Positions 48,925 through 64,000 of a stretch of DNA of 64,000 nt are shown here, piece by piece. The position numbers and the translations under genes are program-made. Numbering within the stretch: position 1 is the stretch's first letter; every line of letters starts with the position of its first letter. Source of the DNA: Mycolicibacterium sp. (GTDB lineage Bacteria; Actinomycetota; Actinomycetes; Mycobacteriales; Mycobacteriaceae). The notes below the pieces were generated by a model. That model saw only the letters and a list, made by a program, of their open reading frames with translations. It ran no database searches and had not been told where the DNA came from. The stretch covers positions 909,579 through 973,578 of the forward strand of contig JACJWN010000003.1 in NCBI GenBank assembly GCA_020637165.1. The letters run 5' to 3'.

Positions 48925-49955
48925 CGGCCGCCCGGCCGAACGCCGTGCCCCACCGCCGCCAGAACGGCGGCTCCCCCTGCCGCCGCGGCCAACGGGGCGG
49001 CGTGCTCCCGCAGCCACCATTGCGGACTGTGCGCCAACGACCTGTCATCGAAGGTCCCGTGGGCTCCGTGATCGCCCCCCGGCCGGTCGTCACGCGGCTC
49101 CCACAGATTCGCCGGATGCCCCAAGTCCGAGGCGTCGGTCTGCTGCGACCCGTACCCGGTCCGGGAAAGGTATCGATCCAGCACCGCGGGGGCGAGCCGT
49201 TGCCCTAACAACGTCGCGACCGTGCTGGTGCCGACCCAGAACTGTTTGCGCCGTGGATGATTGGCCGCGTACAAAACTGCGCGGGCCGCAACCTCGGGTT
49301 GATAGATCGGCGGAACCGGCTGCGGGTGCCGCGGCAGCCGGGACAACACCCAGGAAAACTGAGGGGTGTTGACCGCCGGCATCTGCACCACGGTGACGTG
49401 AACGTTGCTTCCATCGTGCATCAACTCGGTGCGCAGCGACTCAGTGAATCCGTTGACGGCGTGTTTGGCGCCGCAATAGGCGGACTGCAGGGGTATCGCG
49501 CGTGCCCCCAGCGCCGAGCCGACCTGAACGATTGACCCCCGGTCCCGGGGGCGCATCCGGCGCAGTGCGGCGTGAGTCCCGAAGACGAAGCCGAGGTAGG
49601 TCACCTCGGTGACCCGCTTGAACTCCTCCGGGGTGATCTGATCGAAAGGCGCGAAGACTGATGTGAACGCGTCATTGACCCAGATGTCGATGGGACCTAG
49701 ATCCCGTTCGACGGCCTCGGCGGCAGCGTCGACCTGCCGATAGTCCGAAACGTCGGTGGGGATGGGCATCGCGCGCCCACCGCCGTGCTCGACCTCGTCA
49801 GCGGCGGCCGCCAGACCCTCATGGCCGCGGGCCAGCAGCGCCACCCGGGCGCCCTGTCGGCCGAAGAGCCGGGCCACCGCCCTTCCGATACCCGCGCTGG
49901 CACCGGTGACGACGACGGTCTTTCCGTGTAGCGATTTGCTCACAGACTGTCTCAC
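48897..49955 (-). CDS. Short-chain dehydrogenase/reductase with C-terminal extension
   Basis: The 352-residue protein has an SDR core at ~5-250 with TGASAGIGRAVARLFG, an atypical WVNDAF (usual NNAG), and catalytic SAYCGAKHAVNG. An extra ~100-residue tail with a short hydrophobic segment AAPLAAAAGGAAVLAAV follows and may anchor it. The GTG start overlaps the GH15 stop, so it is translated after that gene. The 3' end overlaps the convergent enolase-family gene by 28 bases. Confidence 0.85.
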   Translation of the reverse strand: MRQSVSKSLHGKTVVVTGASAGIGRAVARLFGRQGARVALLARGHEGLAAAADEVEHGGGRAMPIPTDVSDYRQVDAAAEAVERDLGPIDIWVNDAFTSVFAPFDQITPEEFKRVTEVTYLGFVFGTHAALRRMRPRDRGSIVQVGSALGARAIPLQSAYCGAKHAVNGFTESLRTELMHDGSNVHVTVVQMPAVNTPQFSWVLSRLPRHPQPVPPIYQPEVAARAVLYAANHPRRKQFWVGTSTVATLLGQRLAPAVLDRYLSRTGYGSQQTDASDLGHPANLWEPRDDRPGGDHGAHGTFDDRSLAHSPQWWLREHAAPLAAAAGGAAVLAAVGHGVRPGGRQAGDRDTR

Positions 49956-51796
49956 AATTTCCTCTCCTGCAACGTTTCCTGTTGCCGTTCGGTGGTTGTC
50001 ATATCCGCTTCGGTATGGCGCGCCAGCGTGCTCGAGGCCTCGAAGAGCAGGGCGTGCACGAAGGCCTGCGGAAGGTTGCCGCGCAACTGCCGCTGCCGGA
50101 TGTCGTACTCCTCCGAGAACAGCCCGGGTGTTCCGCAACCGGCCCGATTGCGCTCGAAGTACCGGAACGCCTCGACGGTTCTGCCTTGCTGAAGTGAGGC
50201 CAGGGCCATCACGAATCCGCACAACAGAAAGGCGCTATCGGTCGAGCCGAGGCCCTTCTCGGGCCGGTAACGGTAGACGTAGTGGTCGCGACTCAATTCC
50301 CGCTTGACGGCGCGGTAGGTCGCCACCGAGCACGGATCATCGCCAGGCAGGGCCCCGCGGACCGCGGGCAGCAGCAGGGCTCCGTCGACCCGCGGATCGT
50401 CGCGGGCGCGCTGCCACCGTCCGCTGGGGTGCCGGCACGTCGAGGCGGTGTCGGCGACGATCGAGTCGGCCAGCTCAAGTGATCGGCGCGCTGAGGCGCA
50501 GATTCCCGCTTCCGCCGCCGCCCGTAATCCGGCCGCGCAGGCCAGGCGGGAGTGCGTCCAGTGGCGTGCGTCGAGTTCCCAGATTCCGGCATCGGGCCGG
50601 TCGACGCATCGGTCGATGGTGCCGACCGCGAGGTCGACGGCGCGGCGCGCGTCGCGGTCGAATCTGTCGTGACGGGCCGCCGCGGCGAACAACAGGAGCG
50701 CTTCACCAAAGATGTCGAGCTGGAACTGTTTGCGGACGTGGTTTCCGGCCAGGTCGTAACCGCCCGGATAGCCGGACAGGGCGAGGCGTCGCTGCTCGGG
50801 CACCGCACCACCGGCCACGGTGTAGGCGGGCATCAGATCCGGGCCGTCGGCCAGGAGCCTTCCAGATACGAATTTCACTGCGCTGTCGAGCAATTCATGC
50901 GGACCGTCGGCAGCCACGGCGAGACCGGCGTAACACTGATCCCGAATCCAGGCGTAACGGTAGTCGTAATTGGCTCCCTCGTCGGCGCGTTCGGGAAGGC
51001 TCATCGTCGCGGCGGCGACCATTGCGCCGGTCTGGGCGGTCATCCCGCGCATCACTGCATAGCTGTGCGTGGCATCCCGCGGGGCTGCTGTCGGCCCGAG
51101 CACCGGAACAGCCTCCTTCCATACTTTTTCGGTCTCGGCCCACAGCGCCGCGGCCGCCGGGGGACGGTCGGCCAACTCGTGCGCGGACAACTCCAGCACC
51201 AGGTCCATCTGCTGGCCCTCGCCCACGACAACGGTGGTGTCCAGCGCCCGGCTAGTCGCATCATCTCCGGTGACCACGACCCACGGGGCCCCCGACCAAC
51301 GCATCCGCATCGCTCCGAGCGACGCCTCCCAGCAGTCCTCGCCGTCCCGACGACGCGGGTCCCGCATGCGATCGCAGCCAAATCCGGCGCCCGGTTGGAG
51401 CCGAATCGCCAGATGCGCGTCCCCGCGAATCGCCTCGATGCGGCGAAGCAGGACCACCTCGTCGGGCCGACCCGGAAAAGCCAGCGCCTCCCGGCATTCG
51501 ATGATCGCCGACGAGGTGACCCACCGCGAACGCCAGATCAGCGAGCGATCCTCGTAATACCCGCCCCATACGCACGGCTCCAGCGGCGTGACGGCGTATC
51601 GCCCCGGCGCGCCGATGAGCTCACCGAACACCGCGTCACTGTCCCAGTTCGGAGCGCACATCCAGGCGATATCGCCGTGTGGTCCGATCAGCGCCCCACG
51701 TTCGCCGTCGGCGATGAATCCGTAGTCCCTAAGGGTCCACGGTCTGGCGGCCGCGTTCAGCGCGTCCGACTCCCGAGATGACGGGTAAGCACTCAC
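49952..51796 (-). CDS. Glycoside hydrolase family 15 (trehalase/glucoamylase-like)
   Basis: The 614-residue protein has an N-terminal trehalase-type beta domain (DYGFIADGERGALIGPHGDI, WMCAPNWDSDAVFG) and a C-terminal alpha/alpha6 barrel with NYDYRYAWIRDQCYAGLA near residue 285. GIWELDARHWTHSRLAC and EKGLGSTDSAFLLCGF complete the barrel motifs. GH15 proteins of mycobacteria include trehalases. No signal peptide is seen. It starts at GTG, is coupled to the SDR gene, and sits in the stress-type block, where a role in trehalose or glucan turnover is plausible. Confidence 0.9.
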   Translation of the reverse strand: MSAYPSSRESDALNAAARPWTLRDYGFIADGERGALIGPHGDIAWMCAPNWDSDAVFGELIGAPGRYAVTPLEPCVWGGYYEDRSLIWRSRWVTSSAIIECREALAFPGRPDEVVLLRRIEAIRGDAHLAIRLQPGAGFGCDRMRDPRRRDGEDCWEASLGAMRMRWSGAPWVVVTGDDATSRALDTTVVVGEGQQMDLVLELSAHELADRPPAAAALWAETEKVWKEAVPVLGPTAAPRDATHSYAVMRGMTAQTGAMVAAATMSLPERADEGANYDYRYAWIRDQCYAGLAVAADGPHELLDSAVKFVSGRLLADGPDLMPAYTVAGGAVPEQRRLALSGYPGGYDLAGNHVRKQFQLDIFGEALLLFAAAARHDRFDRDARRAVDLAVGTIDRCVDRPDAGIWELDARHWTHSRLACAAGLRAAAEAGICASARRSLELADSIVADTASTCRHPSGRWQRARDDPRVDGALLLPAVRGALPGDDPCSVATYRAVKRELSRDHYVYRYRPEKGLGSTDSAFLLCGFVMALASLQQGRTVEAFRYFERNRAGCGTPGLFSEEYDIRQRQLRGNLPQAFVHALLFEASSTLARHTEADMTTTERQQETLQERKL

Positions 51797-51953
51797 AGGT
51801 CAGGGTTACCCGCCGCCGCTGTCCGACACTGCTCGCCTTCGATACTGCGCGCCGGACCACAAATGTTTGGGGCCGGGCGTTTCCCAACGCGTTGTGCAGA
51901 AGCGTCGAAAGCCTTTGCAGGAGTCGCCGGAACGAGATGCACTATGGGTAGTC

Positions 51954-52211
51954 CTACTGTTCAGAACGTTCTCGGGCTTCGTTCGCCCGGGCCGCTGCGC
52001 GTGCACTCTCCGCCTCGGCTTCCTTCTTTGCCGCTTCCCGCTCGGAGTCGGCCTTGTCCTGCTGAGCCTGGCCTTCGCGATAAAGATCTTCTCGATCGGC
52101 GGCCTTGCCGGCCGCCTCCTTCGCCTTGCCCTTGACTTCTTCCACAACGCCCTCGACCAATTCCGCGACGATGTTCTTCCGGCTTCCTTGATCTGATTTG
52201 CGCTCTGCCAT
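51954..52211 (-). CDS. CsbD-like small stress protein
   Basis: The 85-residue, highly charged helical protein contains VEEVKGKAKEAAGKAADRED, a CsbD-type motif, then Glu/Ala/Lys-rich repeats. CsbD-like proteins are abundant SigB/SigF-regulated stress proteins of unknown mechanism. MAERKSDQGSRKN at 52211, behind GAAGGG, was chosen over an upstream ATG. Confidence 0.75.
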   Translation of the reverse strand: MAERKSDQGSRKNIVAELVEGVVEEVKGKAKEAAGKAADREDLYREGQAQQDKADSEREAAKKEAEAESARAAARANEARERSEQ

Positions 52212-52742
52212 GGCGTCGTTTCCCTTCGTGATCAAACGCATGAGCCTCAGAGCCTCGGCCGCAGTTTCTGTCAGGCAGGACATCCGAGTCATGCTCGATT
52301 TCGTGTCGCCTTTGTCGGCAACCCCTCGTGAAGGCTTCCCGCCGAATAGCGGATCAAAACCGTCGGGCAGCGAGGCCTCGCGCCGGAGATCCCATCACCA
52401 AGACGGCGACCCCTACCGTTCGGATCGCCAAGGAGCACTGGGGTGTTGGTTACGGCGTCGACTATCCAGATCCTCGCTGGAGACCCCCGAAGGCGACCAC
52501 AACCACAACCCCGAGTTCCGATCGCAACCAACAACAATCGAGCACAGAATCGCCCGTTTCCGGCATCGACCAGGGGGCCGGCATCGGCGAAGGCGAGACA
52601 GCGTCGGGCAATCCGGGGGTCCACAGAACGGTGACGGTGATCGAGACGTTGATCCGGGATGACCGTTTACCCGTGGCGTCGGAAGGGAATGCCTATCGGC
52701 GTCCAACCGGATCCGTCGCCGTCGAGCGAGGAGGTGCCCACA
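52212..52742. other. 531-base divergent intergenic region, no gene seen
   Basis: The region separates the CsbD-like and Rho-N-like genes. Open frames crossing it have no family resemblance or ribosome site. Apart from a possible SigF promoter near its right end, nothing was recognised. Confidence 0.5.
52665..52690 (+). promoter_or_regulatory. Possible SigF-type promoter
   Basis: GTTT at 52665-52668, a 16-base spacer and GGGAAT at 52685-52690 resemble a SigF promoter with one mismatch in the -10. It lies 53 bases upstream of the small Rho-N-like gene. Confidence 0.4.
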
Positions 52743-53000
52743 ATGCCGAACCCGTCGATCAAGGACGAGGAAATGTACGAGGAGTTGCGTCGGCATGGCG
52801 AGTCGAAAGAGAAAGCTGCCCGGATCTCCAATGCCGCTGCGGCAAGAGGCAAGTCGGCGATCGGAAAGAAAGGAGGGAAGGCCGGCTCCTACGACAGTTG
52901 GACGGTGCCCGAATTGAAGCGGCGCGCCAAGGAATTGGGACTCTCCGGATACTCGCGGTTGGTCAAGGACGAGTTGATCGCCGAGCTCCGCAACCACTGA
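52743..53000 (+). CDS. Small DUF7218/Rho-N (SAP-like) domain protein
   Basis: The 85-residue protein starts MPNPSIKDEEMYEELRRHG behind GAGGAGG. The N-terminal half (KEKAARISNAAAARGKSAIG) is a short basic helical motif. The C-terminal half (WTVPELKRRAKELGLSGYSR) is a Rho-N/SAP-like helix-extended-loop-helix thought to bind nucleic acid. It is a common stress-type small protein in actinobacteria; target unknown. It is the last chromosomal-type gene before the repeat array. Confidence 0.8.
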   Translation: MPNPSIKDEEMYEELRRHGESKEKAARISNAAAARGKSAIGKKGGKAGSYDSWTVPELKRRAKELGLSGYSRLVKDELIAELRNH

Positions 53001-53081
53001 ATTGCGAACCGACCGCCACCCTGGCCGCCGTCGTTGAGTCCGCCGATGTGACGGGTGGGTGGTGACCGGGTTGATCTTGCC

Positions 53082-53226
53082 GAGCTAACGGGACTCGAAT
53101 CCCTCACTCCCACAACGCCAGGAACGTGAACAACCCCTGAACATGAAGTTCAGGGGTATTTTTGGCCTGTAGTTTGGTGTCGTGGTGGCCGTAAGTGTCG
53201 TCAGGGTTGTCGTCAAAATTGTCGTA
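53082..53226 (-). repeat. Repeat R1: diverged tRNA-Ala(GGC) 3'-half plus iterons
   Basis: This is the first of four related units. The tRNA-like core (plus strand GAGCTAACGGGACTCGAAT onward) is the most decayed copy. Next come hairpin CCCCTGAAC/GTTCAGGGG and three TGTCGTC/TGTCGTA iterons ending at 53226. It marks the left end of the cassette array. Confidence 0.75.
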
Positions 53227-53264
53227 GGGACTGCCCGGCGGTTCCCGGCACCGTAGTCGGTGGC

Positions 53265-54434
53265 TTACGGACCCAGCAGAGCCAGCGGGACCACCCCTAT
53301 GCCGTCGGGCCGACGGTAAGCGTTCGGCCCGGTATTGACGACGACGGCGTCGAGCAGGTCGACGCCGAGGCGGTCCGCCAGCCAGCGCAGGTGCGCGATA
53401 TCGCGATCGCCGACTGTTGCGGACAGTTTCACCTCGACGGCAACCACCTTGCCGTCGTCGCGCACCAACACGAGATCGATTTCGTGGTCGCCATTGCGCG
53501 TTCGGAGGTGGCCGACGGTCGTCTCTGCGGCCTGAGCCGCCACACGTAAACAAAGCGTGGCCAAGGACTCGAAGAGATGGCCCAGCATTCCGCCGGCTTG
53601 GGGCCCGATCGGCTTGCCGTCGCCGCTGAGAAGAGCATCAACCGACAAGCCGAGGAGGCGCGCCGCCAATGCTGGATCGGCCAAGCGGTGCTTCGGGCTT
53701 TGGGCTAAACGCGCCAATGGGTTTCCCGGTGCCCCCCGGGCAGGCACCGGATCGAGCAGCCAGAGCTGAGTGAGCACGTCTCGGTAGGCGGCAGTCGTTG
53801 AACGCGCTGGCTTGTCGCTCACTCCAGCGGTTGCCGCGTCGAGCACACTGGTGTATCCGGCTGTCGTGGATGTGGCTGCAGCGTAGGCACGCAACCAACC
53901 CAACATTGCGTCAGGCTTGCGCACAGGCAATCCCTGCTCGGGCACGTCTCGATCAACGGCGTTGTGCAGGTAGGAATCGAGCTGGAACTTCAGCGCCCGG
54001 GTACTGAGACTTCGCATGCCGGGGAATCCCGACGCGACGATCTCATGCGCGTAATTGGCCAACCTCACGTCCGTCGTCCCCGCAAGGGGCAGCCGGCTGC
54101 CAGTAAGCAACTCGCTGAGACTGACCGTTGGTGAGGCGACGGCCCGCTCTGACAACGTCATCGGTCGCATACGCAGTCGGCCGACACGCCCGGCACCGGA
54201 ATGGGAAGCGCCCCCGTGGCGGGGCGATGCGCTGCCGGCAAGCAGAAACTGCCCACCGGTCGGATCATCGTCGACAGCACGCCGCACGACGTCCCAGACC
54301 GCCGGTACCTTCTGCCACTCGTCGACGAGCAGTGGCCGCGCTCGCTTCAACAGCAGACCGGGGTCGGCGTGCACTGCCTCCAGGTTGGCCTTTGCATCGA
54401 GCCTGAGCAGGCTGAGGACCCGCTGCTCGGCCAT
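53265..54434 (-). CDS. DUF4143-type AAA ATPase, N-terminally truncated
   Basis: The 389-residue frame carries Walker B (PLLVDEWQKVPAVWD), sensor-like QFLLAGSASP, the Arg-rich SGAGRVGRLRMRPMTLSE, the SEL/fragment GFPGMRSLSTRALKFQLDSY and a C-terminal nuclease-like core (HEIDLVLVRDDGKVVAVEVK). The start and most of the P-loop strand are missing: codons for AVGKTT lie just upstream of the ATG, directly after an in-frame TGA. The gene is therefore probably non-functional. It sits alone between repeats R1 and R2, and a full-length relative lies between R3 and R4. Confidence 0.8.
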   Translation of the reverse strand: MAEQRVLSLLRLDAKANLEAVHADPGLLLKRARPLLVDEWQKVPAVWDVVRRAVDDDPTGGQFLLAGSASPRHGGASHSGAGRVGRLRMRPMTLSERAVASPTVSLSELLTGSRLPLAGTTDVRLANYAHEIVASGFPGMRSLSTRALKFQLDSYLHNAVDRDVPEQGLPVRKPDAMLGWLRAYAAATSTTAGYTSVLDAATAGVSDKPARSTTAAYRDVLTQLWLLDPVPARGAPGNPLARLAQSPKHRLADPALAARLLGLSVDALLSGDGKPIGPQAGGMLGHLFESLATLCLRVAAQAAETTVGHLRTRNGDHEIDLVLVRDDGKVVAVEVKLSATVGDRDIAHLRWLADRLGVDLLDAVVVNTGPNAYRRPDGIGVVPLALLGP

Positions 54435-54550
54435 TGTCGTCTTCCCTACGGCTTTCTTGAATCAGACAAATAGCAGGCCCCGAATCATCCAATTAGCCTA
54501 TCGACGAGACGAACGGCTCGAGCGTGCCCGCAGCGTCGCCGTTTTCCCTG

Positions 54551-54696
54551 GTGGAGCTAAGGGGACTCGAACCCTGACCCCCACACTGCAGGCCCGGGCA
54601 AAACCCCTGAACAGGCAGTTGAGGGCGGTTATCGCCGTGTAGTTGGTGTCGTGGAGGCCGTAACCGTCGTCACGGTTGTCGTCAGAATTGCCGTCG
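54551..54696 (-). repeat. Repeat R2: tRNA-Ala(GGC) 3'-half plus iterons
   Basis: The core starts GTGGAGCTAAGGGGACTCGA, with a 1-base deletion in the T-stem copy compared with R3. Then come hairpin CCTGAAC...GTTGAGG and three iterons (CCGTCGTCA, TTGTCGTCA, TGCCGTCG) at 12-base spacing. It separates the truncated ATPase from brnA-brnT. Confidence 0.85.
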
Positions 54697-54700
54697 ACCG

Positions 54701-54937
54701 TCAGGCGGCGGGATGATCCCCTTGATGGAGTTTCTCGGCGATCCAGACCTTGATCAGCGACTGGCGAGTCACGCCGAGACGGGTTGCCTCACGGTCAAGT
54801 TCGGCGACCATCCACGCCGGGAAGTCCACGTTCACCCGTCGGTGTTCCTCACCGGGCCGCCGCGCCCGAGCGGTATCCAAAGCCGCGGCCATGTCCTCGC
54901 CGGCATCGAATCGTTCGTCGAATTCCTTAGCCTTCAT
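54701..54937 (-). CDS. brnA: BrnA-like ribbon-helix-helix antitoxin
   Basis: The 78-residue protein has a C-terminal RHH/CopG-type DNA-binding region, RRVNVDFPAWMVAELDREAT then LGVTRQSLIKVWIAEKL. It is the second gene after the BrnT-type toxin, overlapping it by 11 bases, which is the usual toxin-first order of brnTA. BrnA neutralises BrnT and with it represses the operon. The cassette is bounded by R2 and R3. Confidence 0.85.
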   Translation of the reverse strand: MKAKEFDERFDAGEDMAAALDTARARRPGEEHRRVNVDFPAWMVAELDREATRLGVTRQSLIKVWIAEKLHQGDHPAA

Positions 54938-55190
54938 AAAGTGCCACCTCGTTCTCTCTGGACGGGCGTACCGAAATGATCCGGATGCGTTCGTCTCGGT
55001 AGGTCACGACCGCCGACCAAACCTTGCCACCGACCTGACCGATCACCATCCACCGAGGCTCATCCGTCGTCCGCGCCGGAACCTCGATGCGGTGCGTATC
55101 CCGCCACAGTGTTTGCGCCTCGGTGAAATCGATGCCGTGCTTGAGCAGATTTGCCTCACTGCTGGCGGGATCAAACTCGAACTCCGGCAT
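54927..55190 (-). CDS. brnT: BrnT-like ribonuclease toxin
   Basis: The 87-residue protein has the family layout: FEFDPASSEANLLKHGIDFT at the N-terminus, the central D-x-R/strand region with WMVIGQVGGKVWSAVVTYRD, and C-terminal RIRIISVRPSRENEVALYE. BrnT is a RelE-fold endoribonuclease that arrests translation. A toxin-antitoxin module in an accessory cassette is expected to stabilise the DNA. Confidence 0.85.
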   Translation of the reverse strand: MPEFEFDPASSEANLLKHGIDFTEAQTLWRDTHRIEVPARTTDEPRWMVIGQVGGKVWSAVVTYRDERIRIISVRPSRENEVALYEG

Positions 55191-55284
55191 GTATGGAAAT
55201 CACACCTAAACTACTCAATTCGCAGCTTTGCCCCTCGCGCATCAGTGTGGGGACGCCATGTCGAGGACAAACAGCCGGCAAGGC

Positions 55285-55509
55285 GTCAAAACCGTCGTCA
55301 AATGACCCAACCGCCCCCGCCCAGCAAAAAACCCGAAATCATCTGACTTCGGGCTTTTCTTTGTGGAGCTAAGGGGACTCGAACCCCTGACCCCCACACT
55401 GCCAGGAACAGGCACAACCGCTGAACAGGCAGTTCAGGGTCATTTTTGGCCTGTAGTTGGTGTTGTGGAGGGAGTAACTGTCGTCAGGGTTGTCGTCAAA
55501 ATTGTCGTC
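55285..55509 (-). repeat. Repeat R3: attP-like unit with tRNA-Ala(GGC) 3'-half core
   Basis: The unit has, in plus order: two GTCAAA-type sites 12 bases apart (55285, 55297); terminator CCCGAA/TTCGGG; the tRNA 3' half (55365-55405); hairpin CTGAAC-N5-GTTCAG; and three TGTCGTC iterons at 55479, 55491 and 55503. On the minus strand the core reads as anticodon loop with GGC, stem TGTGG, T-arm and acceptor TAGCTCCA. This includes U70 and A73, which are Ala identity elements. No 5' half exists, so it is not a functional tRNA gene. It is ~93% identical by eye to R4. Confidence 0.88.
55328..55358 (-). terminator. tRNA-type terminator within repeat R3
   Basis: On the minus strand, GCCCGAAGTCA and TGATTTCGGG pair with one G-T wobble or mismatch and are followed by TTTTTT. 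It sits just downstream of the tRNA-Ala 3' end, as the natural tRNA terminator would. Confidence 0.7.
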
Positions 55510-55560
55510 GAACCGGCGGACCCTGCCCGGGTCGGCTGTGATGAGCCCATGGGTAGACCC

Positions 55561-56823
55561 CTAGGGCCCTAATGCGGAAATCGGCACGACATGGACCCCG
55601 TCGGTTCGTTTCCCGCCGCCGCCCGTCGCTGTCACGACAGCGAGAGCGGCAGGCCTGCCGTGCTTTGAGGTGTCTACATTGGCCGCAAAATTCAGGAGCC
55701 CTTTCGCAGCCGTGTCGATGACGTTTTGATCGCCCGTCAGCTTCACCTCGAATGCCGCCCAACCGTCGGGCGTGTCGATGATCGCGTCAACTTCCTTACG
55801 ACCGTGAGACTCCCGCCAGGAGTAGAGCCTGCCGCCGAGGGGTTGCGCATAGATGCGAAGGTCGCGAACCGTCATCGCTTCGAAGTGGAATCCGGCCGCC
55901 TCGAGGTCGGCAAGCAGATCCCGTGATCCAACCTTGAGCGCGGCGGTTCCCAGCGACGGGTCGACGAAGTAGCGGACCGGCGCCTCTCGAAGTTCGGTGC
56001 GCGAACGCATGTGCGGCTTCCATGCCGGCGAGTTCTCAGTGAGTTTGAGACGATCCAACGCGTCGAGGTAGGAGTTCACAGTCTCTCGCGCCGGAGCGCG
56101 ATGGTCATCGCCAGCAATGTCTGCACCTAGCGCGGTGAGTTTTATTGATGTCCCGACTGAACGCGCGAGGGATGCGAGCGCGCGGCGTAGTCGTTCGGGA
56201 GTGCGCCTGCCGACGCCGAGCTCTGGTATATCGATGTCCACGATCTGGGCGAGGTAATCGGCAATCCACGCGCGGGCGCTGCGCTCGGACTGATCAAGCA
56301 AGGCCGGCCAGCCGCCGATGACGATTCGCTCCATGAGGCCTGGAACCGTCATCGCGGTTCGCTTCGCCCTTTGGTCTTCACCGCTCAGCAATCCCGCCAG
56401 CGAAACCTCACCGGTCGAATGGCCGGACTCGAACAAGCTCATTGGCCGCATCCGGAGCGTGCCAATCCGCCCGGCGCCGGAGTGCAATTCACGCTCATCT
56501 TTGGGAGTCGCCGAACCGGTGAGGATGTATAGACCCCGGCGACGCAGATCATCGACATGCCGCCGCACCTGGTCCCATACCTCGGGCGCGCGCTGCCATT
56601 CATCGAAGAGGATTGGCGTCTCATGGTCGAACAACTCGTCCGGGTTGAGGCTGAGAAGTGCGCGCGCGTTCAGGTCTGTGTCGAAACGAATTGAAGTCTT
56701 CGCCCGTTGAAGGGCCGTTTCCGTCTTTCCACAGCCCTTCGGACCGTCGATGAGGACGGCACCAATCGCGGTCAGCCGCTCGGCCAACTCGGTATCGACG
56801 ACGCGCGCCCGATAGTCGAACAT
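55561..56823 (-). CDS. DUF4143-type AAA ATPase, full length
   Basis: The 420-residue protein starts MFDYRARVVDTELAERLTAI. It has P-loop LIDGPKGCGKTETAL near residue 30, Walker B TPILFDEWQRAPEVWD, LYILTGSATP, and SGAGRIGTLRMRPMSLFE. The C-terminal domain carries a PD-(D/E)xK-like pattern (KEVDAIIDTPDGWAAFEVKL). Such ATPases (AAA_14 plus DUF4143) are scattered in genomes and often linked to mobile DNA; their function is unproven. It is alone between R3 and R4. Confidence 0.9.
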   Translation of the reverse strand: MFDYRARVVDTELAERLTAIGAVLIDGPKGCGKTETALQRAKTSIRFDTDLNARALLSLNPDELFDHETPILFDEWQRAPEVWDQVRRHVDDLRRRGLYILTGSATPKDERELHSGAGRIGTLRMRPMSLFESGHSTGEVSLAGLLSGEDQRAKRTAMTVPGLMERIVIGGWPALLDQSERSARAWIADYLAQIVDIDIPELGVGRRTPERLRRALASLARSVGTSIKLTALGADIAGDDHRAPARETVNSYLDALDRLKLTENSPAWKPHMRSRTELREAPVRYFVDPSLGTAALKVGSRDLLADLEAAGFHFEAMTVRDLRIYAQPLGGRLYSWRESHGRKEVDAIIDTPDGWAAFEVKLTGDQNVIDTAAKGLLNFAANVDTSKHGRPAALAVVTATGGGGKRTDGVHVVPISALGP

Positions 56824-56987
56824 GGCACCAGTCTACGTTTTCGACAGTTTCTACTCTTGTTTTTCGACAAGCTCTGCTCGCGCTTTCCGACAGCCCGCGG
56901 CCAAGATCCTGCACCTCATTGCGAACTCGGAGAGAAGAGAAAGGACCTGCGACCATCACACAGGACGTGTGGGGTACCCACGTTGCC

Positions 56988-57213
56988 GTCAAAACCGTCG
57001 TCAAATGGCCCAACCGCCCCCGCCCAGCAAAAAACCCGAAGTCATCTGACTTCGGGCTTTTCTTTGTGGAGCTAAGGGGACTCGAACCCCTGACCCCCAC
57101 ACTGCCAGGAACAGGCAGAGCCGCTGAACAGGCAGTTCAGGCTCATTTTTGGGCTGTAGTTGGTGTCGTTGGGGTCGTAACTGTCGTCAGGGTTGTCGTC
57201 AAAATTGTCGTCA
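56988..57213 (-). repeat. Repeat R4: attP-like unit with tRNA-Ala(GGC) 3'-half core
   Basis: It has the same order as R3: GTCAAA sites at 56988 and 57000, terminator, core (57068-57108), hairpin CTGAAC-N5-GTTCAG, and three TGTCGTC iterons ending at 57213. The upstream ~160 bases between it and the ATPase start hold no gene. It is nearly identical to R3, so one was copied or inserted recently relative to R1 and R2. Confidence 0.88.
57031..57062 (-). terminator. tRNA-type terminator within repeat R4
   Basis: CCCGAAGTCA-TC-TGACTTCGGG is a perfect 10-bp stem with a T-run on the minus strand. It is the counterpart of the R3 terminator. Confidence 0.75.
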
Positions 57214-57405
57214 GGTGAGCAGGTGGGACCATGCGCTGCGAGCCATCAGGGCAGCAGCACTTCTCCGTGTTGCAAGAACTGGCACGTGCGACCCGCCGGA
57301 TCACATCCTTCGTTGACACGGGGCTGGATGCTTCAATTTGCGGTGGGTCGACCGATCCCTGTTAGTCCACGGCTTGGGCACGAAACGGCGTTCCAGGGGG
57401 TCCAG

Positions 57406-58278
57406 TTGACTATCGGCGTCGTCGTAAAGGTGAACGATGGCTACGTCTTGGCCTCTGACAGTGCAACGACCATCGCAGCGGAGACCCCCACGGGCATAGC
57501 TATCGCGAACATTTACAACAACGCAAATAAAATATTCAACTTACGTAAGGGCCTCCCCGTTTCCGCGATGACATTCAACCTTGGAAACATAGGTCCCGCA
57601 TCAATCTCTACACTTACGAAGGATCTTCGGGTTCGATTCGCCGGAAAGTCAGCCGAGCACAAGGACTGGAAGCTCAAGCGGAACGACTACACCATGCAAG
57701 AGGTCGTTGAGCGCTTCAAGAACTTCTTTTGGGAAGAGCACTACAAGCCCTTTGCGGATGCCGCCAAGGCTAACGGCGAGGAAACTCCCCTTCTTGGACT
57801 AATCGTTGCTGGCTACGGTGCCAACCAAGCGCTACCCGAAGTGTTCGAGTTTCAACTCACACCTCAAGGTTGTAATGGCCCGATTCCTGTCCTTGCAGGT
57901 ACCACCGGGGCATCGTGGTACGCGCAAGGAGAAGCAATCACGCGCTTACTGAACGGGGTAAGCGGCTACACCCCCCAAGCGCTAATCAACCTAGGTCTTG
58001 CGAAGGACGAGTCGGAGGCGATGGCGATCGCAGAGAATCTCGCAAGCCAGGTGAATGCGCAGCTTGTTTCGCCCGCAATGCCGATCAAGGATGCAGTCGA
58101 CTTAGCGGAGTTCCTCGTTCGCGTGACCATTGGATTTGTTCGATTCTGCCCTGGGCACCCTACCGTTGGTGGTCCAATCGAGATCGCTGCAGTGACCAAG
58201 CACGAAGGCTTCAAGTGGGTGCAACGAAAGCACTACTTCGAAGCGGCGATGAATCCAAAGCAGAGAGGTGAGCGATGA
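57406..58278 (+). CDS. Proteasome-like Ntn hydrolase (candidate)
   Basis: The TTG at 57406 follows AGGGGG at 5 bases and gives a 290-residue protein beginning M-T-I-G-V-V-V-K. After Met removal Thr becomes residue 1. Asp is then residue 17 in YVLASDSATT, exactly as in proteasome beta subunits and HslV, and a Lys follows in NANKIFNL at position 41, comparable to Lys33. LGLIVAGYG and the alternating strands support the fold. The length exceeds HslV (~175) by ~110 residues. Codon use is less GC-rich than in neighbours, suggesting acquisition. An upstream ATG at 57328 would hide the Thr. Substrate unknown. Confidence 0.65.
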   Translation: MTIGVVVKVNDGYVLASDSATTIAAETPTGIAIANIYNNANKIFNLRKGLPVSAMTFNLGNIGPASISTLTKDLRVRFAGKSAEHKDWKLKRNDYTMQEVVERFKNFFWEEHYKPFADAAKANGEETPLLGLIVAGYGANQALPEVFEFQLTPQGCNGPIPVLAGTTGASWYAQGEAITRLLNGVSGYTPQALINLGLAKDESEAMAIAENLASQVNAQLVSPAMPIKDAVDLAEFLVRVTIGFVRFCPGHPTVGGPIEIAAVTKHEGFKWVQRKHYFEAAMNPKQRGER

Positions 58279-58445
58279 CTGCATACTCGGCTGCCGAATT
58301 AGCAAGCGGTCAATCGATCTACCGGAGCGCCCCTCAGGGGCCGGCCGTCCGGCAGGCGATCAAACCATCTCGATCGTTGACTACGTCGGCGTCTCCTGCA
58401 ACAAAGCAAACCGCTAAACCCGCTCCCGACAAATCGAAGAGTTAG
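58275..58445 (+). CDS. Small protein coupled to the proteasome-like gene
   Basis: The 56-residue frame starts MTAYSAAELASGQSIY. Its ATG overlaps the upstream TGA (ATGA), so it is translated with the Ntn hydrolase gene. The sequence is Ser/Pro/Lys-rich and probably disordered, ending AKPAPDKSKS. No family is recognised. It could be a substrate, regulator or chance frame; the tight coupling favours a real gene. Confidence 0.5.
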   Translation: MTAYSAAELASGQSIYRSAPQGPAVRQAIKPSRSLTTSASPATKQTAKPAPDKSKS

Positions 58446-58551
58446 ACCCTAGATTCAACGCCTGACTGTGGGATGACCCGAAGATTCGGATTGGCGGCCG
58501 TTGGACGTCGCCGATGATCACCGAGCAATTTACTGTCGCTCCAATAGGTTC

Positions 58552-58571
58552 CTAGCCTCGATTTTTCGTGC
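58552..58571 (+). repeat. Left inverted repeat of the IS1380-type element
   Basis: CTAGCCTCGATTTTTCGTGC matches the right end at about 15 of 20 positions, with identical outer CTAGCC. Confidence 0.55.
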
Positions 58572-58721
58572 CGGTGGGGTTCGGGGGTGCTGAGCCGGGG
58601 AAGCCGCTGAGCGGTAGCGTTTTCGGGGTTGGGGTGTGTTCGGCTGGCCCGTGTCGCCGGGTGGGGCGGGCTTTCCTGTGGCCGGTGGGTCTTTCGGGTC
58701 GTCGGGGCGGGGGTCTGTTGG

Positions 58722-59168
58722 TTAGGGGAAGGCGGCGCGGAGGCGCTGCCAGGCGGTGGCGATGGCTTTGGCCCAGCGCCAGGTGGCGTCGATGCGTAGC
58801 CGTCGTTGGCGGGCGCCGCGGGTGATGCGGGCCGCGACGTGCAGCACCCGGTAGCGGAAAGCAGAGATTTCGCAGCGGGCCAGCTCCGGGGCGTCGGCGA
58901 AGCCGATGAGTTGGGCCCAGGCGACCAGGTCGGCGGCGGCCAGCACGATTTCCAGCCAGGCGGCATTGGCGTCGAAGCCGTGGCAGGGCAGGTTGGCCAG
59001 GCCGGCGGCTTTGGCTTCGCGGATGCGGTCCTCAACGCGGGCGTGCTGGCGGTGGCGTAGTTCCAGGCCGGCCAGCTGCCCAGGCACCGCGGCGGGTGCG
59101 GTGTCGGTGATGAAAGCGGTGATGCGCATGCCGTCGATGTCGGTGAACCGCAGCTGCGCACCCGGGTG
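58722..59168 (-). pseudogene. IS1380 transposase, C-terminal exon
   Basis: After the intron, the frame continues HPGAQLRFTDIDGMRITAFI, then VEDRIREAKAAGLANLPCHG and NAAWLEIVLAAADLVAWAQL. These are the C-terminal DDE-domain motifs of IS1380 transposases. The final catalytic Glu region is retained. It gives 148 residues and stop at 58722. It joins the N-terminal exon in frame at a codon boundary, so intron splicing would restore a 465-residue transposase. Confidence 0.85.
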
Positions 59169-59229
59169 GTTGAGTCGGCCCGCAGCGCGGTGCCGGTGTT
59201 GCCACCGGTCCGTTTCTGCGGGCCGCTCG

Positions 59230-59266
59230 CCGAACCCGGCGTGCGCGTCTCCACGCACCGGGCTCT
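59230..59266 (-). ncRNA. Group II intron domain V
   Basis: The sequence begins GAGAGCCCGGTGCGTGGAGA and closes with CGCACGCCGGGTTCGG, matching the conserved 34-nt domain V with its AGC triad, GNRA-like loop GAGA and internal bulge. It is the catalytic core that binds the active-site metals. Confidence 0.88.
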
Positions 59267-59281
59267 CCACGGTCTCTGCCG

Positions 59282-60754
59282 TCAGGCGGGGTTGGCCACC
59301 GTCCAGGGATTCGGGATCTTGTTACCGCGGTACCGATAACGTGCCGTGGGCACGCGACCGAGATTAAACAATGCGACCCCGTCCGCCGACGGCATGCGCC
59401 ACCGGCCGTTTGGGCCGATGAGGTGCCGTCGGAGATCGGCCCAACTCCACCGATGCAGCCTCAACCACCAGCGAGCAATCCTGTGCCACACGAAGATGGC
59501 CAGGGATTGCATAACGCTCTTGGCGACGGCATATCTGAAGTAGTTGGACCAGCCGCGCATGATCCGGTTGAGCCGGACCAACACGTCCCTGGGTGGCTGC
59601 TGCGACAACCTGCTGGTCAGGGCACGAATCTTGTCCTTCAGCAACCGGATGGGCCGATCGGCGATGAACACGTAGACGTACCACTTGTCGGTACCTCGCT
59701 TGGGTTTCCACTGGATGCGGAACCCAAGGAAGTCGAACCCCTCGCTCATGTGCACGACACGGGTCTTGGTTCCGGAGAACCGAAGCCCCAGTGGCGCGAG
59801 CACCTCAGCGATCTCCTCGCGCAGGGTATTCACATCGTCACGACTGCCGAACACGAGAACAACGAAATCGTCCGCGTAGCGGACGATCCGCCAGTTCGGC
59901 AGACCCCTCCTGCGACGGAGAGCGCGATGTATGCGGTTGCTCATCACCCCGCCCGGCTGCCACGGTCCATGGACGTGCTGATCAAGCACGCTTAGGGCGA
60001 TGTTGGCCAGCAGCGGGGACATGATGCCCCCTTGCGGCGTGCCGGTCGGGTTGTCCTCAAGGTGACCGGTTTCGGTCATTACTCCGGCCTTGAGGAACGC
60101 TTTGACCAGCGCCAGCACGCGCTTGTCTTTGACCCTCGTGCGCACCCGGTCCATCAGGGCCGTGTGCTCGATCGAGTCGAAACACGCTTCGATATCGGCG
60201 TCGAGCACCCAGCGATAGCCTCTGGTGCCCAAATACTGAATCTCAGCGACCGCGTCGTGGGCCCGTCGCCTCGGCCGGAACCCATAGGAGACCGGCAAGA
60301 AGTCGGCCTCGAAGATCGGTTCCAACACCAGCTTCAGCGCCGCCTGGACGACCCGATCCGCAATGGTCGGAATCCCCAACTTCCGGACCTTCCCGCTGCC
60401 GCCCGGTTTGGGGATCTTGCGTTCCCGCACCGGAAGCGGACGAAACGAGCCGTCCTTCAACTGAGTTCGCAGGCCGTCCAGAAACCCGGGCATCCCGACG
60501 CTGGCCTCCACGGCGGCGACGGTCAGACCGTCCACCCCAGCAGTCTTGGCACCGGAATTGCCCGCGACCCGGTCGAACGCCACCAAGAGCGTCGCCGGGT
60601 CGTACACGAGGTTGAACAGGTCATCGAAGCTGCGGCCGGGATCGGCCGCCGCCCAATGGTGAAGCTTGGTCTGCATCCCCGATACCCGAGCGCGTGGACC
60701 CACCGGGTCCGTGTGCTGCGGAGCGACGGTATTCACCGCCGCGTCTTTCAGCAT
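59282..60754 (-). CDS. ltrA: Group II intron reverse transcriptase/maturase
   Basis: The 490-residue protein has the RT domain with RKLGIPTIADRVVQAALKLV, FDSIEHTALMDRV, GTPQGGIMSPLLANI and the catalytic VRYADDFVVLV. The maturase/X domain contains RIMRGWSNYFRYAVAKSVM. It ends soon after, without a CxxC-type HNH endonuclease domain, so mobility would rely on replication-fork or single-stranded targets. GGAAGGAG precedes the ATG. It lies in intron domain IV. Confidence 0.95.
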   Translation of the reverse strand: MLKDAAVNTVAPQHTDPVGPRARVSGMQTKLHHWAAADPGRSFDDLFNLVYDPATLLVAFDRVAGNSGAKTAGVDGLTVAAVEASVGMPGFLDGLRTQLKDGSFRPLPVRERKIPKPGGSGKVRKLGIPTIADRVVQAALKLVLEPIFEADFLPVSYGFRPRRRAHDAVAEIQYLGTRGYRWVLDADIEACFDSIEHTALMDRVRTRVKDKRVLALVKAFLKAGVMTETGHLEDNPTGTPQGGIMSPLLANIALSVLDQHVHGPWQPGGVMSNRIHRALRRRRGLPNWRIVRYADDFVVLVFGSRDDVNTLREEIAEVLAPLGLRFSGTKTRVVHMSEGFDFLGFRIQWKPKRGTDKWYVYVFIADRPIRLLKDKIRALTSRLSQQPPRDVLVRLNRIMRGWSNYFRYAVAKSVMQSLAIFVWHRIARWWLRLHRWSWADLRRHLIGPNGRWRMPSADGVALFNLGRVPTARYRYRGNKIPNPWTVANPA

Positions 60755-61340
60755 TACAGTCTCCTTCCCTTCTCGAAACCGCTGCCGCCCTTCCCCATGT
60801 GCCGGGCTCTCCCCGGCTCGGAGTACTACGGCGGCTCCGCCCCACCCTGACCCGATCGGCGGTCGGTGCGCCCAGCCGAAACCCGCGGGCTGGCTGCCCC
60901 AAGGATCGGCGGGACCAGGATGGTTCCCGTGTTCACTGTGATTCGCTCGACGGATGAGGAGCCCGACTCTGCCCCTGCGGCATCACCACGGTTACCCCGC
61001 AGCACGTCACCGTGGTCTCCGGGCCGACCGACCTATCCGGCCCAGGAGTTCCCCACTAGATCTCAGTGGGTGCGCACCGCCCCGGCCCCTATCCGCCAGA
61101 TTTGAGCCGGTGCAAGATGAAGGGACGTAAACGCCGGTTCCTCGCGTACTCCTTTCCGCCACGCTCGCCGGACCCGCACCATCTGGCAGTACTGGCACGT
61201 CCCGGCTTTGTCAGGGCTGCTTCCCACCCTCCCCGGCACCACCCGGGTCAGGCTGCCCTCAGCTTCACCGTCCTGCTGCGACAGGATCAGCGACGTCGGT
61301 CTTTCACCTCCGTTCGAATCAACAGCGCCTCACGGCGCAC

Positions 61341-62291
61341 CGGGCGCTCTTTGCGCAGCACCAGCCGGGTCCCGGCAGGCCAGGTCGACAGGTTGACCAG
61401 AGTCGTGGCCTCGGCCACCCACGCCCCGTCACGCAACTCGCCGCTGGAGTCGATGGCCGGATACCAGCCGTGGGCGAGGTTGAGGGTGTCCACGGCGTCC
61501 CAGACGCGGGCGTCGACGGGGAATCCGAAGGAGAACCCGACCCCGCGATCGCGGCAGGCCTGGGCGAACTTATGGGTGGCCCCGGCGGTATCGGAGCGCA
61601 CCACCACTATCGGTCCGTTCGCAGTGTCCGGGTCGGGGCGCCATGCCGCGGGTAGCGAGGCCAACGCCTGGTCCAGGACCGTGATGTGGTCGGCGGCGGT
61701 GTTCGACCCGGCGTTTCCGGCCCTCAGCAGCCCGGCCAAGGCCTCACCGCCGGCGATCTCGGGGCGGTCCAGAAACGCCAGCAACGGGTGATGGCCGAAG
61801 GACTTCTTCCACGTCGGCGCCGCCTCGGCTTTGTTGTCGGAATGGTCGATGACCAGGGTGGCGTCCATATCGATATACAGCGGCCGGCCACGGGTCGGGG
61901 CGGCCCCGGCCGCCCAGGCCGCCGCCCGCGCCGCCGCCCGGGCGCCGCGAACCTTGGGCAGGTGCGCGGCGTCGATGCGCGAATCGACCAGCCGCCACAT
62001 CGTCGTCGTGGAGGCCTTGGCCCCGAACACGTGCTCGCGGTCGGCGCACAGCTGCCCGACTCCGTCGATGCAGTCCGCCCCGTCAGCCACCGCCGCGGCC
62101 AGATCGGCGAACACCTCCCCCGGGGCATACACCCACGACCCCTTGTAGGTGTCAGCCAACGCGGTCGTGACCTGGGCGGACAGCCCGGTCTGGTCGGCAA
62201 GTTCCCGCAGCAGCCCCATCCCGGCGTGCGACACCACCCCGTGGCCGTCCGCCGAGACTTTCACCCGCTGCGCCGCCGCGATACTCTTCAC
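61341..62291 (-). pseudogene. IS1380 transposase, N-terminal exon
   Basis: The exon has 317 codons starting MKSIAAAQRVKVSADGHGVV, including PLYIDMDATLVIDHSDNKAEA and GPIVVVRSDTAGATHKF, the DDE catalytic Asp regions of IS1380 enzymes. The exon stops at ...LRKERP immediately before the intron; unspliced reading continues 16 codons into the intron to a stop at 61287. Spliced product reads RKERP-HPGAQLRF. Confidence 0.88.
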
Positions 62292-62394
62292 CTGCGAGGT
62301 GCCTTCCTGCTGGACGACCGAACCCTAGACAAGTCCGATTATCCGTTGCAGGACAGGCACTTTCGCTTATCAACACCCCGCTACACGCACATAC

Positions 62395-62414
62395 CGCGCA
62401 AAATCCGGGCTAGC
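62395..62414 (-). repeat. Right inverted repeat of the IS1380-type element
   Basis: CGCGCAAAATCCGGGCTAGC is the imperfect complement of the left end. It lies ~104 bases upstream of the transposase start. Confidence 0.55.
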
Positions 62415-62439
62415 GAGCCGTGATTCAGCTAGCGAGAAA

Positions 62440-62691
62440 TCAGCGGCCGGGGACGGGCAGACCGCCTACTAGCGCGCCAGGGTCGCTATCAAGCCCGTCG
62501 GCGATCTTCACGATCGTTTCCAGCCGCAGGCTCCGCTGCCCACGTTCCACCTTCCCCAACTGCGTCCAGTGGATTCCGCACCGAACAGCAGCCGCCTCCT
62601 GGCTGAGCCCGAGCTCAAGCCGGCGTCGCCTGACGCGTTCGCCGAATACCCGGGTGGTCTCGTTGAGCGCGGACGACTCGGCCTTAGACAT
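62440..62691 (-). CDS. XRE-family HTH regulator
   Basis: The 83-residue protein is a single cro/C1-type HTH: ERVRRRRLELGLSQEAAAVR and GIHWTQLGKVERGQRSLRLE at ~20-60, then IVKIADGLDSDPGALVGG. MSKAESSALNETT at 62691 was chosen; longer frames add a basic tail without a ribosome site. It lies between the IS and a divergent unknown gene, which it may control. Confidence 0.85.
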   Translation of the reverse strand: MSKAESSALNETTRVFGERVRRRRLELGLSQEAAAVRCGIHWTQLGKVERGQRSLRLETIVKIADGLDSDPGALVGGLPVPGR

Positions 62692-62810
62692 GGTCAACAA
62701 CCTCATACGGCCCGGGCGTAACCGGCCAGAGCGTGAAAGGCCCATGCGCATTGACCTCAACTGTTATCGGCCTTAATGTGAGCGCTGCACACCAAGCCCC
62801 ATGGAGAGCA

Positions 62811-63470
62811 ATGCCGCCGGACGCTGACCCCCAACGACACAGGAACCTCGTCGAATCCCTCGCTCCCCTTATGTGCCTGCCGGACCGTCTGATCGCCGCC
62901 GCGCTCGATCAAATGGCTTGGCACTTGCTCTGCTGCCATTACTTGCTCAGGGGCTTCAGGAACGAATTCACGGAGGTGCTGGGCGCGGCCGTTGGAGAGG
63001 AGTTCTTGCATGAGGTGACATCAGGAATCTCAGAACTGCGCGTTGCCGTTGAAACAGCGATCGCCGAGATCGCCGTGCGGCACTTCGATCGCATGGTCTG
63101 CTCGACCGCCGACTCCTTCCAGGACAGGCTTGACGTCCTGTGCGACCCGGAGAACATCCTCGTTCCCAGCGCAGAGGCCGCGCCGCAGTGTCAGAAGGTT
63201 GGGGGTAGGGGCGTGCGCCAATGCACCAGACCAGTCATCTACATCGGTGGCGGCGAGTGGTCTCAGGGATGCGAAGCCCACGCCTGCAGCGCAGATCAGG
63301 AGCGCCACAAGCAATGGCAGGACAGCCTCAAGGGCACTGCGGGTGATGAAGCCCGGCTCCGGCAGGCTCGGCAACTCGCCTACGTAGCAAATTTCTTGCT
63401 GGAATGGTGGCCGACAGCCGAGAATTTGGACGCCTTGATTCGAGAGGCTTTGGGCGGGTCACCGGCTTAG
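62811..63470 (+). CDS. Unknown protein, soluble, Cys/His-containing
   Basis: The 219-residue protein starts MPPDADPQRHRNLVESLAPL behind GGAGAG. The N-terminal half is helical (IAAALDQMAWHLLCCHYLLR). The central part has QCQKVGGRGVRQCTRPVIYI and QGCEAHACSADQERHKQW, a Cys/His pattern that could bind zinc. The C-terminal ~50 residues are helical. No family is recognised. It may pair with the divergent XRE regulator. Confidence 0.6.
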   Translation: MPPDADPQRHRNLVESLAPLMCLPDRLIAAALDQMAWHLLCCHYLLRGFRNEFTEVLGAAVGEEFLHEVTSGISELRVAVETAIAEIAVRHFDRMVCSTADSFQDRLDVLCDPENILVPSAEAAPQCQKVGGRGVRQCTRPVIYIGGGEWSQGCEAHACSADQERHKQWQDSLKGTAGDEARLRQARQLAYVANFLLEWWPTAENLDALIREALGGSPA

Positions 63471-64000
63471 GCCAGCATCACGGCCTTTCTCCGAGAATCC
63501 TTGTGTTCTCCAGCGCAAGGGCGCTGCAAGTTCGCGATAGCGACTGAGGGACACTCTCAGCTGGGCCAGCAGTTCGCCAGCGACCTCTTGACTAGTTGTA
63601 GCCGGATGCTCAATCCGATTGAGATGGGCGCTGATTCGGCTGATCGCGGTGGAGCGCTTTTCGGCGGCTTGGTTACGGTCTGCCGACCACGGCAGGTTCT
63701 CGACGAGGGCTTCGGCGAGGTGCCGACTTGGCCCAGCGACCCCGTCGTTTGAGATGGCAAGCACGAGTTTGGTGTTTGTCGCCCCGGCGTTCGTCATCAA
63801 CCAAGTGATCTGCGCCCGAGTGAGGTGGTCCGCGTCGTCGACGATGATGAGCGAACCCGCGGGCGACTTCCACTGTCCGTTCTGCAGTTTGCGGACTCCT
63901 TCCGCAGCGGCAACCGAGCTGTGGCTGTAGCGATCACGACCGGACCGTTCGACAGCTTCGGCTGTTGCGGGCAACGCCATGAGGTTCCCCCGAGACCGTG
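63459..64000 (-). CDS. ATPase/helicase-like protein (partial, cut by right edge)
   Basis: The frame is open to the right edge. The visible ~180 residues contain SPAGSLIIVDDADHLTRAQI, a Walker B-like DDAD segment, then NTKLVLAISNDGVAGPS, a sensor-1-like strand. A C-terminal helical tail (AGELLAQLRVSLSRYRELAA) ends the protein. This resembles the second half of a P-loop ATPase such as a conjugative relaxase/helicase; the Walker A would lie beyond the window. It overlaps the preceding gene by 12 bases. Confidence 0.55.
   Translation of the reverse strand, partial: RSRGNLMALPATAEAVERSGRDRYSHSSVAAAEGVRKLQNGQWKSPAGSLIIVDDADHLTRAQITWLMTNAGATNTKLVLAISNDGVAGPSRHLAEALVENLPWSADRNQAAEKRSTAISRISAHLNRIEHPATTSQEVAGELLAQLRVSLSRYRELAAPLRWRTQGFSEKGRDAGLSR

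Follow-up and report, generated by a model that had tools for sequence, protein, structure and literature searches.

Tandem single-gene cassettes without an integrase at the 3′ end of tRNA-Ala(GGC) in mycobacteria, probably moved in trans

The window analysed here is a stretch of 64,000 nucleotides that forms the end of a 973,578-base contig (C23) of a Mycolicibacterium sp. genome (G000). It contains an array of three cassettes, each 0.8-1.7 kb long and holding a single gene or operon, which are set between four related units that resemble attachment (att) sites. An earlier note, made from the letters alone, had drawn attention to four such units in the same orientation and to cassettes encoding a truncated DUF4143 ATPase, BrnT-BrnA and a full DUF4143 ATPase. 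All four units are present as described, and the gene contents were borne out by matches to DUF4143 in both ATPases and to BrnT and BrnA. The features of the array are as follows:

53081-53226, plus strand: unit 1, decayed core with P′-type arm sites; distal end of cassette 1
53265-54434, minus strand: DUF4143 AAA ATPase of cassette 1 ("type 1"), with a shortened N-terminus
54551-54696, plus strand: unit 2, core with two single-base losses and P′ arm; junction of cassettes 1 and 2
54701-54937, minus strand: BrnA antitoxin of cassette 2 (NF047399, E 3e-36)
54927-55190, minus strand: BrnT toxin of cassette 2 (PF04365, E 2.2e-24)
55284-55509, plus strand: unit 3, full P-O-P′ site (P arm sites, hairpin, intact core, P′ arm sites); junction of cassettes 2 and 3
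55327-55358, no strand: hairpin of unit 3
55561-56823, minus strand: full DUF4143 AAA ATPase of cassette 3 ("type 3"), in the PADLOC candidate defence family PDC-S01
56987-57212, plus strand: unit 4, full P-O-P′ site; junction between cassette 3 and the next element
57030-57061, no strand: hairpin of unit 4
57213-64000: next element, which runs past the contig end, with an open reading frame (ORF) at 57406-58278, an IS1380-type transposase and a group II intron

The four units are direct repeats. The intact core is 41 nt long and, read by eye, corresponds to the 3′ half of tRNA-Ala(GGC), starting with the anticodon loop, with the tRNA sense on the minus strand; this half tRNA can be seen in every unit, as the note had claimed, and ARAGORN found no whole tRNA in the window. 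When compared with the intact core, unit 1 has seven mismatches, unit 2 has lost two single bases and units 3 and 4 show no mismatch, so that decay grows with distance from the tRNA side. The leftmost copy had been singled out as decayed, and it is, but it is not alone in this, as the cores of units 1 and 2 are both damaged. These two units consist of core and P′ arm only and have no P arm. In units 3 and 4, by comparison, the P arm has a pair of TGTCGTCA-type sites or near matches at a spacing of 12 bp, and the P′ arm has three TGTCGTCA-type sites, the first of which lies 114 bp after the start of the core.

Over their 226 nt, units 3 and 4 share 95% identity. Followed in 20-nt steps, this is 15-20 of 20 within the unit and falls to 1-7 of 20 on the left of the first arm site and to at most 9 of 20 beyond the last one, i.e. 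the limits of similarity are the outermost arm sites at both ends. We conclude that, judged by sequence, units 3 and 4 are complete attP-like sites. A profile of the core end and P′ arm matched the four units with E values of 6e-24 to 1e-30, all four being among its training rows. A run of T residues lies behind the hairpin of units 3 and 4 on the tRNA strand and, since the hairpin of unit 3 follows the tRNA 3′ end on the minus strand and closes with this run, it is perhaps a tRNA terminator that is carried by the element.

Each of the window cassettes was searched for in 392 genomes of the genus. Cassette 1 matched G003 with 94% identity over 1383 bp, along with two further pieces that reach the core on the tRNA side, and the match starts 6 nt to the left of the left core. 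The brnTA cassette (cassette 2) matched G032 with 77% identity over 876 bp; the match begins approximately 5 nt to the left of one core and extends through the following core. For cassette 3, the match to G015 (82.5% over 1542 bp) starts 9 nt left of the core and ends some 175 nt before the next one. Homology therefore runs from core to core on both sides for cassettes 1 and 2, and is bounded at the left core only for cassette 3.

In total, there were 23 places with brnTA, spread over 22 genomes, 11 places with cassette 3 in 10 genomes and nine with cassette 1, each in a genome of its own. The note had supposed that an array whose units and genes are fixed in all relatives would be a static one, and across species they are not so fixed. 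Att or tRNA-Ala features lie within about 1.5 kb at 8/23 places for brnTA, 8/11 for cassette 3 and 7/9 for cassette 1, some loci being cut by contig ends, and among these att-associated places the cassette is directly beside tRNA-Ala in 5/8, 4/8 and 5/7 cases, respectively. The brnTA places with att features comprise the seven best matches and one fragment. It can also be seen that the order of cassettes changes. Going outward from the tRNA side, G000 would have the integrase-containing element described below, then cassette 3, brnTA and cassette 1, while in G218 (M. gastri DSM 43505), with three cassettes bounded by cores, type 1 is followed by type 3 and then by MazE and MazF, and G182 has Fic and then brnTA. 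The middle of the G182 tRNA reads as N, and its Fic cassette was accordingly counted as open in the census below. In G023 the tRNA-adjacent cassette has a MazF gene and another site lies beyond it. We conclude that the three window cassettes occur elsewhere in mycobacteria, singly or reordered, at this same tRNA.

We compared fourfold degenerate sites of the cassettes with those of genes that flank the same tRNA. For cassette 1, 222 of 240 such sites (92.5%) agree between G000 and G003, against 182/278 (65.5%) for the phosphoglucomutase gene and 135/215 (62.8%) for the major facilitator superfamily gene, and on this evidence cassette 1 has evidently crossed species recently. As the G000 copy is shortened (389 aa, with the start absent, compared with 428 aa for the G003 homologue), purifying selection is an unlikely cause of the excess identity. 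The corresponding figures for cassette 3 are 57-60% (G218, G015 and G159) against 47-56% for phosphoglucomutase (G218 and G159), and for brnT 25 of only 35 sites agree with G194, against 59-60% for the two flanking genes.

To describe the size and cargo of related elements we took 72 loci, consisting of the window and 71 fetched regions, with L010, the loci of other site types (L097-L104 and L111) and short search loci set aside. Sites that scored at least 40 bits and had a tRNA-Ala side were counted (n = 76). A further core within the fetched DNA closes 38 of the 76, and the other 38 run off the fetched DNA, so the figures do not amount to a census of size. Twenty-two of the 38 closed elements, from 18 genomes, are small (at most 3.5 kb; 813-3150 bp), and a full integrase, defined as a match of at least 350 aa to the integrase P0001 described below, was found in none of these 22, the three window cassettes included; one of the 16 larger closed elements (G179) has such a match. 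The brnTA elements of four genomes measure 813, 815, 819 and 822 bp.

The cargo of the small elements comprised 205 ORFs of at least 62 aa, of which the 150 longest were scanned with Pfam, 25 of the 58 matched families being listed. A DUF4143 ATPase or a toxin-antitoxin-type gene is present in 17/22 elements. Among the families listed and some further scans, DUF4143 was seen in eight small elements, BrnT in four, PemK/MazF in two and AbiEii in two, and Fic, DUF4062, a protein kinase and an ABC protein were seen in one each. DUF5615 occurs in one element, beside a small ORF, and is read here as part of a toxin-antitoxin pair. A Phage_integrase match was listed for only one of the 150 ORFs, a 279-aa ORF in G377 and not in the window.

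Elements of other kinds were seen at the same sites. G009 has a 10.2-kb element at the same tRNA (L043:7353-17589) with apparent arsenic-resistance and phosphate-binding genes, identified by eye, and no P0001-like match. Three elements of 10.24-10.30 kb in G136, G292 and G321 (L052, L106 and L120) have the same att design at closure, and a 3-kb cassette at tRNA-Ala(GGC) in G143 has a single large gene, which encodes an ABC-F-like ATPase (L045:6209-7885).

The absence of an integrase that the note had remarked on holds for the array but not for the genome. As the note had suggested might be the case, an intact tRNA-Ala(GGC) lies beyond the 64 kb, on contig C4 of the same genome, with a P arm and hairpin like those of the units on its 3′ side, and a tyrosine integrase of 422 aa (P0001; PF00589, E 5.5e-22) is encoded about 1.6 kb from this arm. 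The first 20 kb of C4 also encode a helix-turn-helix protein, P0002. The second-closest match to P0001 in its own genome has 30% identity, and there is no other close one. No RepSA or FtsK gene was found among the 10 C4 ORFs scanned with Pfam, the element being cut by the contig start. We infer that the C4 element and the window end are parts of one element or locus, and P0001 would be expected to act on sites of the unit type. Beside the integrase lies an operon resembling bacteriophage exclusion (BREX) systems (L010:125-12666), which encodes PglX, cut by the contig start, BrxC, PglZ, BrxD and BrxHI along with a PDC-S11 protein.

Homologues of P0001 were sought by tblastn and with a loose motif. 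Among the matches listed, P0001 is about 32% identical to phage integrases and 41-46% identical to plasmid integrases, all of the latter from Streptomyces, and a phage origin was rejected on these figures. Closer homologues lie in elements that end at the same tRNA, with 76-77% identity in G053, G136 and G039 and 59% in G179. In G053, the sole such element scanned with Pfam, genes for RepSA (PF20199, E 4.6e-133) and an FtsK/SpoIIIE protein come after that of the integrase (77% identical); NCBIfam matches to RepSA and TraB fall below their cut-offs. This element thus carries the gene set of an actinomycete integrative and conjugative element (AICE), namely an integrase, a RepSA-type replication gene and TraB/FtsK. 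The window cassettes carry none of this set, and only DUF4143 and BrnT/BrnA genes were found in them. C-terminal pieces of an integrase, absent from the window cassettes, were seen in G095, at 0.24 kb from the tRNA, and in G038 and G221, right next to an arm pair, which suggests that some elements may have arisen by deletion. The G053 element (L055:2897-19001 and L056:1-7332) also has Mce-like, cytochrome P450 and MMPL genes and encodes a protein with an ABC-3C C-terminal domain.

We consider it likely that the array grew at the 3′ end of tRNA-Ala(GGC) through tandem accretion of tiny elements that lack an integrase and resemble cis-mobilisable elements (CIMEs), and that these were probably moved in trans by AICE-type integrases. 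Each cassette would comprise a single gene or operon, bounded by a P arm on one side and by the core and P′ arm on the other. An AICE-type tyrosine integrase that recognises the same arms and core would insert circular cassettes at the tRNA-proximal end, and each insertion would restore the 3′ half of the tRNA and leave a P-O-P′ junction. Older cassettes would thereby shift outward and decay. As the small cassettes have no complete integrase, larger elements nearby appear to supply the integrase that moves them, and the circles would presumably have a route into new cells. The note had proposed tandem integration, which is supported by the complete attP-like units 3 and 4, by the separate and reordered cassettes of other species and by the recent move of cassette 1 between species; its proposal of movement in trans is likewise the likeliest reading.

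An alternative is that the array is a static relic, in which a single ancient island, or several dead AICEs in a row, decayed where they stood and left att scars between the surviving genes. The decayed cores of units 1 and 2, the shortened gene of cassette 1 and the integrase pieces within the G095, G038 and G221 elements would all fit such a history, but the lone or reordered cassettes found next to the tRNA in other species would not, and nor would the close recurrence of size among the brnTA elements or a cassette 1 that is far more alike in G000 and G003 than the genes flanking the tRNA. We regard a static relic as quite improbable. Alternatively, homologous recombination among the att repeats and between species might do most of the shuffling, with an integrase having only founded the first elements. 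This would overlap with tandem accretion, and it would sit well with ends that cluster by lineage and not by cargo (see below) and with the near identity of units 3 and 4, whose arms belong to different cassettes. However, recombination in arms or flanks would give other breakpoints than those of cassettes 1 and 2, where homology ends at the cores on both sides, and units 3 and 4 cease to be alike beyond their outermost arm sites, as would be expected of sites under selection; we hold this explanation to be unlikely.

The note had also likened the array to an integron. Cassettes of one gene or one operon, toxin-antitoxin cargo and an ordered array are what a true integron-type system with a dedicated integron integrase would have, and in outcome the comparison fits. 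The machinery differs: P0001 scores 32.4 bits on the integron-integrase model TIGR02249, for which the cut-off is 265, and is not an IntI by that measure, and the sites look like arm-type attP sites, with arm repeats and a tRNA core. We give a true integron system almost no credence and conclude that the array is integron-like in outcome but is not an integron. The interpretation offered by the note as a whole is thus partly upheld, in tandem integration and movement in trans, while its likeness to an integron extends to the outcome and not to the machinery.

A number of observations weigh against trans-mobilised tandem accretion. Contigs C23 and C4 are unjoined in the assembly, and the window end shares a single 47-bp match with the first 20 kb of C4. 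The window end of C23 was searched for the remaining part of pglX without result, and the sole other PglX-like match is weak and lies at the start of contig C32. Moreover, the left flank of the array is not at the tRNA in the three genomes compared (G004, G016 and G022), where its best match lies more than 200 kb from tRNA-Ala(GGC). Homologues with no att features within 1.5 kb account for 15/23 places of brnTA and for 3/11 and 2/9 places of the ATPases (some of these loci again being cut by contig ends). At fourfold sites, cassettes 2 and 3 have diverged about as much as the genes beside the tRNA, so a recent transfer is seen for cassette 1 only, and cassette excision and circularisation are themselves steps postulated from sequence. 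Finally, the P′ arms cluster by host lineage and not by cargo, and by eye the hairpins do likewise: in G000 the cassette 3 P′ arm is 88% like the Fic arm of G182, 86% like that of its neighbouring element and 66% like the arm of cassette 3 in G015. Ends and cargo are therefore not strictly linked. This points to one of two processes, conversion of arms within a lineage or a swap of cargo between ends, and the grouping by lineage is the least understood part of the system.

The same grouping is the ground for a wider and more tentative idea, which we think possible but doubtful. Mycobacteria might run a distributed, integron-like cassette economy through AICE-type tyrosine integrases, in which one gene travels with a complete attP, each lineage renews the ends to suit its local integrase, and toxin-antitoxin and defence-like genes are shuffled at one tRNA, with a sister family at tRNA-Arg. 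Cassettes moved in trans at this tRNA would give single toxin-antitoxin and defence-like genes a second way, next to integrons, of becoming interchangeable, and a trans-mobilised element may be as small as 0.81 kb. The att signature, which is present in many mycobacterial species, culture-collection strains such as M. gastri DSM 43505 included, would also be a handle for finding uncharacterised genes such as those of the DUF4143 ATPases.

With respect to range, 44 stretches were found when named genomes were scanned for the pattern. Most are from Mycobacterium or Mycolicibacterium, and one each is from Skermania, Nocardia higoensis and Actinokineospora globicatena, where tRNA-Ala is a presumed target. 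The P′-side profile matched 225/396 genus genomes at E ≤0.01, many of them weakly, and 72/396 at 1e-10, the tRNA-Arg class included; only strong profile sites were taken further. This class is a sister att family with the same P′ arm design and a different core, read by eye as a tRNA-Arg 3′ half, and has several copies on different contigs of one genome. Its loci are L097-L101, L103, L104 and L111 (G163, G263, G148 and G218) as well as L152; in L098, L101 and L104 the flank is not tRNA-like and a short match ending in ATCCGT is kept. A scan of viral contigs gave one contig of 5.9 kb, the end of which is a tRNA-Arg-type site.

Attempts to place the left boundary of the array by synteny failed, since window positions 49900-53080 match genus genomes piecemeal. 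The flank of the tRNA is variable among eight genomes fetched, one of which, G105, holds a brnTA cassette. At the other end of the array, the ORF that follows unit 4 (57406-58278, plus strand, 290 aa) had been called proteasome-like, a label that found no support, as the ORF has no match in Pfam, NCBIfam, PADLOC or PDB sequences. The next element also has a further, unassigned ORF at 58442-59254, a group II intron match (RF00029) at 59169-60754 on the minus strand with a reverse transcriptase/maturase ORF, and the IS1380-type transposase at 61287-62291.

Chromosomal integrons are ordered arrays of one-gene cassettes with toxin-antitoxin cargo, and in these three respects the mycobacterial arrays resemble them. 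Integrons, however, use attI and attC sites and an integron integrase, whereas the mycobacterial arrays have arm repeats and a tRNA core and, by model score, no IntI. AICEs of the pSAM2 type are the likely helper, with an integrase, RepSA and an FtsK/TraB-like gene at a tRNA 3′ end, as in G053, and differ from the window cassettes, which lack all of these genes. Tandem AICEs in Frankia are reported to excise alone or together, and the same study reports serine recombinases for all of its Mycobacterium AICEs but Mkan24688 (PMC3218068). A survey of the Mycolicibacterium mobilome reports one AICE-like contig and describes AICE reports in Mycobacteriaceae as few (PMC8190616).

Arrays of islands downstream of one RNA gene are described for Dehalococcoides ssrA, where 15 islands have no integration module (PMC3146451). 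The mycobacterial arrays are alike in being stacked at one RNA gene; the Dehalococcoides islands, as portrayed there, have a serine recombinase and are rich in reductive dehalogenases, whereas in mycobacteria there is a tyrosine integrase and the cargo is mostly single genes of toxin-antitoxin type or DUF4143. CIMEs are stretches of DNA without integration genes that lie between att sites and are stacked in tandem near an element with an integrase. Such accretion at the site of an integrative and conjugative or integrative and mobilisable element is like the window array in being flanked by att sites, devoid of integration genes and at the 3′ end of a gene (PMC5704250). Flanks of the attL and attR kind are seen at both ends of cassette 3, and cassette 2 has core and P′ on the left and P and core on the right; the left end of cassette 1 is decayed and its right end partly deleted. 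Integration and transfer genes of their own are likewise lacking, in that all 22 small closed elements are without a P0001-like match of at least 350 aa. The window cassettes differ from CIMEs in being single genes or operons of 0.8-1.7 kb that recur across species in changed orders.

A literature search that covered titles and abstract openings, with most subscription papers outside it, gave no account of such cassettes at mycobacterial tRNA-Ala. CIMEs and tandem accretion, the Dehalococcoides arrays and the tandem AICEs of Frankia are already known. What looks new is the size of one gene or operon, the bias towards toxin-antitoxin and DUF4143 genes, the reuse of the cassettes in other orders across species and the complete attP-like site at their junctions.

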